In this document: in pieces, positions 21,569-27,257 of the stretch | Numbering within the stretch: position 1 is the first letter of the stretch | Layout of the letters: each line of letters starts with the position of its first letter | Translations under genes and position numbers: made by a program | The notes under the pieces: model-generated | What the model was told of the DNA's origin: nothing | What the model saw: the letters and a program-made list of their open reading frames with translations, nothing else | Database searches by the model: none | NCBI RefSeq assembly: GCF_003258365.1 | Contig: NZ_QHKM01000001.1 | Span: forward strand, 1,240,001-1,304,000 | Origin: Hymenobacter edaphi | GTDB taxonomy: Bacteria > Bacteroidota > Bacteroidia > Cytophagales > Hymenobacteraceae | Direction of reading: 5' to 3' | Length of the DNA stretch: 64,000 bases

Positions 21569-21754
21569 CTAGTGCATCCAGGCCAGCATCCCCCGGAAGG
21601 GGTTGCCCGAGCCCCGGTAAGGCGTGTAGTTAGGACGGTGCGTGTGCGGCTTGCCCTTCATCAGGGACTTTACGTAGCGCGGGCGGGGGCGGGCTTCCGC
21701 CTGGCCAGCGCAGCCAAGCACAATCAGAGCGAGCAGAAGTACCATTTTGTTCAT
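21569..21754 (-). CDS. Tiny secreted basic protein with THRPNY motif
   Basis: The 61-residue product has a signal peptide (MNKMVLLLALIVLGCAGQAEA) and a mature part of about 40 residues that is basic and rich in P, R, Y, G and H. Its centre, MKGKPHTHRPNYTPYRG, matches MKGRIYTHRPSYKTYKG in the small gene at 27009. So there are two paralogues of an exported mini-protein about 5.3 kb apart. I recognise no family. The gene has its own terminator and an AT-rich upstream region of about 200 bp. Confidence 0.7.
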   Translation of the reverse strand: MNKMVLLLALIVLGCAGQAEARPRPRYVKSLMKGKPHTHRPNYTPYRGSGNPFRGMLAWMH

Positions 21755-21982: not shown

Positions 21983-21998
21983 TCACATGATAATGTGA
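21983..21998. promoter_or_regulatory. Palindromic site TCACAT-N4-ATGTGA, copy 1
   Basis: TCACATGATAATGTGA has perfect 6-bp arms identical to those of copy 2 at 22336. A degenerate -7 box (TATTCTGG, 22023-22030) starts 24 bp after it, upstream of the small ORF at 22066. Confidence 0.5.
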
Positions 21999-22065
21999 TA
22001 CCTCAAAGGCGCTCATTTGCGTTATTCTGGGAAGTTGTACTCGCCATTGTTTTTTACCCAGCCCT

Positions 22066-22317
22066 ATGGACGAAGCCTACTTCCTCGCAATCGGTTTTGA
22101 GCGGTGGGTGAGCCTGCTCCCGCTCCAGACGACCATGTACGTGCACCGCTGCCCCGCCCGCGACGGCGCCCGCCTGTACCTGTCCATCCCCCCGACGGCA
22201 GCGGCCGAAAGCTCCGCTGCCGCGCGCGCCAGCCTTGAGGCCCGGGTTGAGCGGTTTTTCAGCAAACACGGCGGGCGCACCCCCGTGGCGCTCCAGCGGC
22301 TAACGCCCGTAACCTGA
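22066..22317 (+). CDS. Small hypothetical protein
   Basis: The 83-residue product starts MDEAYFLAIGFERWVSLLPLQ and has an Ala/Ser/Glu-rich helical segment (AAESSAAARASLEARVERFF). No signal peptide or recognised domain. The codon use is GC-rich at third positions, unlike the AT-rich DNA just before it, which supports real coding. It is bracketed by two copies of the same palindrome, one upstream of its likely promoter and one after its stop. Confidence 0.5.
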   Translation: MDEAYFLAIGFERWVSLLPLQTTMYVHRCPARDGARLYLSIPPTAAAESSAAARASLEARVERFFSKHGGRTPVALQRLTPVT

Positions 22318-22335
22318 TTCCCCGACGCCCTGGCA

Positions 22336-22351
22336 TCACATATATATGTGA
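22336..22351. promoter_or_regulatory. Palindromic site TCACAT-N4-ATGTGA, copy 2
   Basis: TCACATATATATGTGA is a perfect 16-bp palindrome with the same arms as copy 1. A near-consensus -7 box, TACCTTCG (22375-22382), starts 23 bp after it and could drive the short RNA that ends at 22455. Confidence 0.5.
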
Positions 22352-22387
22352 CGCCCCCAGCCCACTCCGCCCTTTACCTTCGCCGGG

Positions 22388-22455
22388 TGCCGCACTGCTC
22401 GGCGGCACTTGGTGAACAATGGTAACGCCCCGACCAGCTGGTCGGGGCCTTTTTT
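22388..22455 (+). ncRNA. Candidate small RNA of about 70 nt
   Basis: Between the -7 box TACCTTCG and a strong terminator there is no ORF but two hairpins. The first is GTGCCGC / GCGGCAC (22387-22393 and 22402-22408), extended by two G-U and two C-G pairs. The second is a terminator stem formed by a 20-bp perfect palindrome (CCCCGACCAG / CTGGTCGGGG) followed by CCTTTTTTT. The exact 5' end is inferred from the -7 box. Confidence 0.4.
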
Positions 22456-22495: not shown

Positions 22496-22529
22496 AAAAG
22501 GCCCTCCAGCGTGCTGCTGAAGGGCCTTT
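22496..22529 (-). terminator. Terminator of tRNA-Asp copy 1
   Basis: The stem AAAGGCCCT / AGGGCCTTT, read on the minus strand, is followed by TTTTGCTTTT, directly after the tRNA. Confidence 0.8.
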
Positions 22530-22531
22530 GC

Positions 22532-22604
22532 GGTCCGGACGGGACTCGAACCCGCGACCTCCGCCGTGACAGGGCGGCATTCTAACCGACTGAACTACCG
22601 AACC
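22532..22604 (-). tRNA. tRNA-Asp (GTC), copy 1
   Basis: On the minus strand the acceptor stem is GGTTCGG / CCGGACC, the D-arm holds AGTCGGTTA, the anticodon loop is CTGTCAC with anticodon GTC, and the T-arm is GCGGG-TTCGAGT-CCCGT. No CCA is encoded. The mature part is identical to copy 2. Confidence 0.95.
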
Positions 22605-23975: not shown

Positions 23976-23977
23976 GC

Positions 23978-24050
23978 GGTCCGGACGGGACTCGAACCCG
24001 CGACCTCCGCCGTGACAGGGCGGCATTCTAACCGACTGAACTACCGAACC
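23978..24050 (-). tRNA. tRNA-Asp (GTC), copy 2
   Basis: Base-for-base identical to copy 1, anticodon GTC, no encoded CCA. Its own -7 box TACCTTTG is at 24090-24097 on the minus strand. Confidence 0.95.
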
Positions 24051-27008: not shown

Positions 27009-27257
27009 ATGATCCGAATCCTGCTTCTCTGCTTTGCGCTGCTGGTGAGCAGCGTGGCCTCTACCACGCCGGCCGAAGCGGCCCGCATCAGCTCCTACGC
27101 CAAAGCCAAAATGAAGGGCCGCATCTACACGCACCGCCCCAGCTACAAGACTTACAAGGGCCGCAAGAAGGCCAAGCGCTTCAGCCTGCGCAAAACCGGC
27201 AAGAGCAGCAACAGGACCTTCCAGCTGCGCCCCAAGCACAGCACCACGCGCTTCTAA
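27009..27257 (+). CDS. Small secreted basic protein with THRPSY motif
   Basis: The 82-residue product has a signal peptide (MIRILLLCFALLVSSVAS, cleavage likely after AEA) and a strongly basic mature region (K/R/T/S/Y-rich; net charge well above +15). It shares MKGRIYTHRPSYKTYKG with the 61-residue protein at 21569 (MKGKPHTHRPNYTPYRG). The C-terminal half (KKAKRFSLRKTGKSSNRTFQ) is specific to this copy. The function is unknown. It is monocistronic, with a strong terminator and a long AT-rich upstream region. Confidence 0.7.
   Translation: MIRILLLCFALLVSSVASTTPAEAARISSYAKAKMKGRIYTHRPSYKTYKGRKKAKRFSLRKTGKSSNRTFQLRPKHSTTRF

Follow-up and report, generated by a model that had tools for sequence, protein, structure and literature searches.

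A conserved NarL-type response regulator very probably recognises a palindrome upstream of a small gene and a predicted short RNA in Hymenobacter edaphi

Introduction

The window analysed here, a stretch of 64,000 nucleotides from the genome of Hymenobacter edaphi, contains the same 16-bp palindrome, TCACAT-N4-ATGTGA, upstream of a reading frame for an 83-residue protein (83-aa gene) and again upstream of a predicted short RNA. This raises the questions of which regulator may recognise the palindrome and whether both transcription units are controlled from it in the same manner. A first-pass annotation of the sequence had assumed an activator that replaces poor -33 elements and drives both units from sites of matched geometry, and had suggested scanning the genome for the motif and identifying the regulator gene that accompanies it. 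The open-licence literature yielded no account of the motif or of a Hymenobacter response regulator (RR) or sRNA of this kind, and none of a regulon motif for LuxR-family RRs of Bacteroidetes, of DNA binding by two-component transcription factors of Hymenobacter, or of CGTT promoters of ECF sigma factors in Bacteroidetes; subscription papers were outside the scope of this search, and the regulon may be published there. The argument depends on the following features of the window.

21983..21998, + strand: palindrome 1 (TCACATGATAATGTGA), exact match; putative RR site for control of the 83-aa gene
21999..22002, + strand: TACC right after palindrome 1 (TAYC invariant in nine species)
22020..22023, + strand: CGTT, invariant at a fixed distance in nine species and possibly a core promoter element for the 83-aa gene
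22023..22030, + strand: TATTCTGG, the -7 box of the first-pass annotation, with 4/6 consensus positions here and 1-4/6 across nine species
22066..22317, + strand: gene for the 83-aa protein, present in 8/8 genus genomes; predicted alpha-beta-beta-beta-alpha
22336..22351, + strand: palindrome 2 (TCACATATATATGTGA), exact match; putative RR site for control of the RNA, at the predicted positions -51 to -36
22375..22382, + strand: -7 box TACCTTCG, 23 bp past palindrome 2
22387..22454, + strand: predicted short RNA of ~68 nt, start inferred from the -12 to -5 position of the box
22386-22409, + strand: hairpin of the RNA, followed by a linker with GGTGAACAATGG and by the terminator at 22427-22454 (stem 22427-22448)
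22530..22604, - strand: tRNA-Asp, convergent with the RNA, with a terminator-like stem at 22497-22529

Results

Both palindromes reported in the first-pass annotation, at 21983 and 22336, are indeed exact matches; they are the only exact copies in the window and flank the 83-aa reading frame. With up to two mismatches allowed, the window contains three matches, compared with a mean of 0.53 after shuffling, and none of 100 shuffles reached three. The entire 6.04-Mb genome harbors 11 exact palindromes and no copy of the reversed control pattern, and all eight genus genomes searched carry 6-11 palindromes each, as opposed to 0 or 1 for the control. All 11 exact sites of the own genome are intergenic, as judged from in-house gene calls with a simple codon-score caller, which left one or both flanks of the sites without a called gene at a few outside loci. 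Since 11 exact copies stand against none of the control and all of them lie between genes, the genome scan indicates that the palindrome is not randomly placed. Note that a CRP-like site (TGTGA-N6-TCACA) was considered and rejected, the half-sites of the palindrome being oriented in the opposite way.

The spacing between palindrome and -7 box was scanned at each distance from 0 to 79 bp in both directions from 87 distinct exact sites, which comprise all 71 from the eight genus genomes, all 12 carried by G016, G020, and G028, which belong to a second genus, and four of the five from four other genomes. The full -7 box TANNTTTG occurs exactly 23 bp past the palindrome in 13 of the 174 orientations, compared with 0-2 at each other distance; the remaining 79 distances together yield just 7 perfect boxes. 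When the sites were grouped by their neighbouring genes into 36 locus families, a box with at least 5/6 consensus positions was found at 23 bp in eight families, the figure for each of the other distances being 0-3 families. The genome-wide comparison, which covered spacers of 23 and 19 bp with up to three mismatches in the eight genomes, gave 157 places (control, 5) for the palindrome, N23 and the box, and 34 (control, 4) for the corresponding N19 pattern. A box of at least 5/6 is present at 23 bp in 15/174 orientations, and most exact sites are without a good box there.

In the passages available from a study on Flavobacterium psychrophilum (PMC9723704), the -7 box spans positions -12 to -5. 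Carrying this over to the window places the palindrome of the RNA promoter at -51 to -36, with its centre at -43.5 and adjoining the -33 region. Class II activation is characterised by a site that adjoins or overlaps the -35/-33 element at a fixed distance from the core box, and this arrangement was found at the RNA promoter by way of the 23-bp peak, with the box position borrowed from another genus. Among 34 promoters chosen for good matches, T (23/34), G (19), and A (18) are the leading bases at -34, -33, and -32, and both window promoters are devoid of a TTG at -35 to -33. Compared with the sigma-A promoters of Bacteroidota, with -33 TTTG and -7 TAnnTTTG in the available text of PMC7366714, the RNA promoter and many of its sister promoters share the -7 box, whereas the window promoters lack the TTG and carry the palindrome beside that place. 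The same text describes promoters of Bacteroidota without the usual -10 and -35 boxes and reports that no -33 motif was identifiable at all in Flavobacterium johnsoniae, and therefore an absent -33 element constitutes weak evidence. The proposal of an activator replacing poor -33 elements thus retains the missing TTG and the activator-like spacing on its side, but the former counts for little. Altogether, these data support the view that the palindrome resembles an operator, that its distance to -7 boxes is typical of an activator site, and that it marks both transcription units.

The 83-aa gene is conserved in all eight genus genomes, including the own one, and in H. gummosus, while other relatives show weak partial matches in 2 of 50 cases (E values of 0.008-0.009); the named relatives possessing it are H. 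jeollabukensis, H. gummosus, H. busanensis, Solirubrum puertoriconensis, and two Hymenobacter sp. The protein matches no Pfam family above the cut-off, and its structure model (pLDDT of 81) has no PDB match with E <= 0.001, so the fold gives no function. In the nine species, i.e., the eight genus genomes plus H. gummosus, palindrome 1 is kept throughout as YCACAT-N4-RTGTGR, directly followed by an invariant TAYC and, 21 bp behind the palindrome (positions 22-25), by an invariant CGTT. The distances of 24 bp to TATTCTGG and of 23 bp to TACCTTCG given in the first-pass annotation are correct for the window, but the first of these boxes drifts across the nine species, as counted by eye. The matched geometry claimed for the two promoters does not hold in this form: the site before the 83-aa gene is conserved in 9/9 species, yet what is kept behind it is TAYC-N17-CGTT instead of a -7 box, so that the idea of the same geometry is only partly right. 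The core promoter of the 83-aa gene accordingly looks unlike one recognised by sigma-A.

As separate observations from this part of the window, two small basic and probably secreted proteins are encoded at 21569-21754 (- strand) and 27009-27257 (+ strand), which share a similar MKGxxxTHRPxYxxY stretch as judged by eye and are possible paralogues; the former has no Pfam match. The two tRNA-Asp genes on the - strand, at 22530-22604 and 23976-24050, have the same anticodon and equal Rfam scores and lie 1.4 kb apart.

The region behind the second -7 box folds in the window as two hairpins (z = -4.0), and none of 200 shuffles was as stable. Palindrome 2 is retained with 0-3 mismatches in 7/9 species, being lost in G004 and G002, and a -7 box with 5-6/6 consensus positions lies 22-24 bp past the site in 6/9 species, with G003 lacking a good box. 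In an alignment of seven sequences, 5 of the 15 base pairs of the terminator stem have changed on both sides, and the linker around GGTGAACAATGG is kept among the relatives, but hairpin 1 is not: some species have it in a strong form, G001 and G003 in a weak form or not at all, and it is missing from the consensus fold of seven sequences (G004 left out). A two-hairpin consensus was consequently rejected, the alignment of seven supporting the terminator only, which preserves the fold and the terminator of the first-pass description for the window itself but not its first hairpin as a conserved element.

The RNA has no match in Rfam. A covariance model gave matches at the RNA locus in 7/8 genus genomes (1.8e-14 to 2.2e-10), which are there by construction, because the model was built from eight of these sequences. 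The next matches look like terminators, since they are weaker (from 1.4e-7 on), many occur on both strands, and some match with E <= 0.1 is found in 45 of 58 genomes. No second copy of the RNA was found with this model among the up to 86 first-look candidates scored per genome, and a DNA search for copies recovered mostly terminator stems. Pairing of the RNA was examined with one partner, the leader of the 83-aa gene next to it; a possible duplex seen by eye (AACAAUGG with CCAUUGUU) was discarded, being no better than with shuffled leaders in eight species (p 0.11-0.97). The second site of the window likely represents a palindrome/-7 promoter before a predicted short RNA which is conserved at this place. 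Like Rfp and the other sRNAs of F. psychrophilum described in the available part of PMC9723704, it appears as a short structured RNA in a genome of the Bacteroidota; it differs from these in lacking an Rfam match and in being known here as a prediction from sequence.

The gene most commonly found beside the palindromes codes for a response regulator of 217 amino acids and occurs there in 11 genomes.

G000:C7:15691-16341: RR gene in the own genome, behind the gene for a Y_Y_Y/HisKA_3 histidine kinase

The RR consists of a Response_reg domain (PF00072, 6.6e-24) and a GerE/LuxR-type HTH domain (PF00196, 3e-15), i.e., the NarL/FixJ-type layout, and the kinase encoded upstream (L124) shows Y_Y_Y, HisKA_3, and HATPase_c domains in its C-terminal 333 amino acids. 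The best full-length sequence matches of the RR among solved structures are VraR and NarL (E values of 3.8e-30 and 1.6e-28), which share the combination of receiver and GerE domains; both come from other phyla, and no shared operator or signal is implied. Orthologues with at least 78% identity are present in 11 of 58 relatives, and palindrome sites occur in 11/11 genomes with an orthologue as against 4/47 without (p = 6e-9, relatedness ignored). The same was found among 120 genomes of the second genus, where the motif is present in 41/44 genomes with the RR and in 3/76 without (Fisher p = 7e-25, relatedness ignored), corresponding to 154 sites in the former and three, one each, in the latter. 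The line for orthologues in the second genus (E <= 1e-85) was drawn after seeing the gap; at a looser cut-off of 1e-50 (47 genomes), the values are 41/47 and 3/73. As to the regulator gene that accompanies the motif, co-occurrence and adjacency point with good confidence to this conserved NarL/VraR-type RR. Among its more distant homologues (45-60% identity), 13/14 have no near-palindrome in their locus. G045, with a 54% homologue, carries TCACCC-N4-ATGTGA on both sides of the gene, and in G053 a single exact palindrome is located ~4 kb away from the 55% homologue, with other genes between.

The RR loci examined comprise the 11 orthologues and the four best of the second genus and are no random set. 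In 15/15 of them the RR gene has an exact palindrome on its downstream side, and in 14/15 a recognisable, often imperfect one upstream, the upstream pattern having been defined loosely. All 14 upstream sites are followed by a CTT-containing box at 22-24 bp, while 10/15 boxes of the downstream sites contain CTT and only 1/15 starts with TA. Among the matches listed for the second genus, 13 of 16 RR genomes have an exact palindrome no more than ~100 bp from the RR gene, the exceptions being G062, G068, and G077. Because the gene is flanked by such sites on both sides, autoregulation of the RR is probable.

Downstream of the RR gene, an unannotated reading frame of 24-25 residues was noted in 14/15 loci (L130-L140, L191, L193, and L194, but not L192). 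In the own genome (L130) it reads MSAKSRRQLLISMLGLWLTGSPALA and lies 91 bp past the palindrome, while the versions of the second genus resemble MPKPRRQ...GLWLTGRPALA. The predicted peptides end with ALA or AIA, resembling a bare signal peptide, and the differences between the sequences fall mostly on the third base of the codon, with 96/22/204 at codon positions 1/2/3.

Discussion

The enrichment of the palindrome, its preferred spacing, its conservation, and its co-occurrence and adjacency with the RR gene suggest that it is very probably the landing site of this one conserved response regulator. In the course of events that may be proposed, where binding, phosphorylation, activation rather than repression, the transcription starts and a function of the RNA are all predicted, a signal from the kinase would lead to phosphorylation of the RR, which would then bind the 6-N4-6 palindrome as a dimer, with one subunit per hexamer. 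At the RNA promoter, the dimer would occupy positions of approximately -51 to -36 and thus adjoin the -33 region, i.e., in a class II position, and recruit a sigma-A polymerase reading the -7 box that follows after 23 bp. From palindrome 1, the RR would control the 83-aa gene in combination with the different-looking core promoter TAYC-N17-CGTT, and it would control its own gene through the sites on both sides. The activator idea has good support at the RNA promoter and partial support at the 83-aa gene. We assign a probability of roughly 0.8 to the entire reading, comprising the RR operator, class II activation of the RNA promoter, control of the 83-aa gene and self-control. Weighing against this reading are the 3/44 RR genomes without an exact site and the 3/76 others with one each, the majority of exact sites lacking a good box at 23 bp, the poor boxes downstream of the RR gene, the loss of palindrome 2 in G004 and G002 and of a good box in G003, the 13/14 distant homologues without a near-palindrome, and a second NarL-type RR which has a variant site before its own gene.

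This second NarL-type RR (L199), whose variant site reads TCACATCTTTATGCGA, is one candidate if a different dimeric regulator reads the motif, another being some unlinked factor co-varying with the RR, as co-occurrence cannot separate a regulator from a companion. However, the palindromes flank the gene of the 217-aa RR in the 15 RR loci examined, while strings like the site of the second RR turned up in only two other genus genomes among the matches listed, and we consider a different reader distinctly improbable. The RR itself may also act in the opposite sense and repress the window promoters by covering the -33 region, which adjoins the site at -51 to -36, so that a bound dimer could block the polymerase; yet a dimer that touches the polymerase, more than one that simply obstructs it, would be expected to keep an exact 23-bp phase to the -7 box, leaving little chance for repression. 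That the palindromes arise by chance or belong to a functionless repeat family might be argued from the frequent recurrence of the core TCACATCATCATGTGA, but is practically negligible in view of control counts at or near zero, the preferred phase to the -7 boxes and the retention at orthologous places.

For the 83-aa gene, an ECF sigma factor may be envisaged as transcribing from CGTT at -10 and TAYC at -35, with palindrome 1 tuning that promoter. Both elements are invariant at a fixed 17-bp spacing in 9/9 species while the -7 box drifts, and the available passages of PMC9723704 describe an ECF-type motif of F. psychrophilum that is distinguished by CGT in its -10 box. On the other hand, TGRTAYC-N17-CGTTA is not enriched in the eight genomes, with nine places, five of them the 83-aa locus, against seven for the control, and an ECF regulon reading TAYC-N17-CGTT was dismissed for this lack of enrichment. 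Transcription of the 83-aa gene by an ECF factor is possible, with the odds somewhat against it.

If the palindrome is an RR operator, its closest parallel in layout is the box of ComA from Bacillus subtilis, a transcription activator which binds inverted hexamers 4 nt apart, equal to the 6-N4-6 arrangement found here; the comparison follows the available sections of PMC4797271. The ComA regulon of ~20 genes in nine units may be set beside the 11 exact sites of the Hymenobacter genome. The hexamers are different (TTGCGG in the ComA box, TCACAT in the palindrome), and ComA promoters contain a direct repeat in addition, which occupies the class II position, with the inverted repeat acting mainly from further upstream, whereas the RNA promoter of the window has a single inverted repeat at the class II position. 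A second TCACAT or ATGTGA was not found by eye in the spacers at either window site. When placed at the class II position in the ComA study, an inverted repeat gave poor activation relative to a direct repeat, and the simple class II picture is weakened to some extent, because the inverted repeat next to the -35 element is the weaker arrangement there.

The palindrome and its sites would make up a regulon that is new but of a familiar kind, including a second, unexplained promoter type and several small products. Its value lies in the step from an operator to the regulator that probably reads it, made with sequence data only and backed by strong counts, and the list of promoters, the conserved small protein, the predicted short RNA, and the tiny peptide may all answer one signal. 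A more far-reaching idea, which we regard as unlikely and offer tentatively, would be one Hymenobacter-type two-component system with a TCACAT-N4-ATGTGA regulon in which the RR gene, like the 83-aa gene, lies between two boxes, the downstream boxes precede the signal-peptide-like peptide and the short RNA as small feedback or output products, and the 83-aa promoter is a hybrid of the RR and an alternative sigma factor.

Some variants of the palindrome were noted apart from these sites. The related TCGCAT-N4-ATGCGA, located 23 bp before a -7-like box, precedes genes for predicted secreted proteins (L205, 836-882; L206, 842-888) and is possibly the box of a paralogous regulator. Another recurring promoter-like string consists of a variant palindrome (e.g., TCACCT-N4-ATGTGA), a similar 19-bp spacer ending with TGCGTCG or TGCATTG and then TAGGTTTG, and is present in 7/8 genomes among the matches listed, e.g., at G003:C21:604781-604823. 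Finally, one locus of the own genome (L196, G000:C11:673000-678500) contains two adjoining genes with CxxCH motifs, c-type-cytochrome-like as read by eye, each of which follows a variant palindrome with the right half ATGCGA or GTGCGA, 23 bp before TACTTTTG, and similarly paired sites occur in five other genus genomes among the matches listed.
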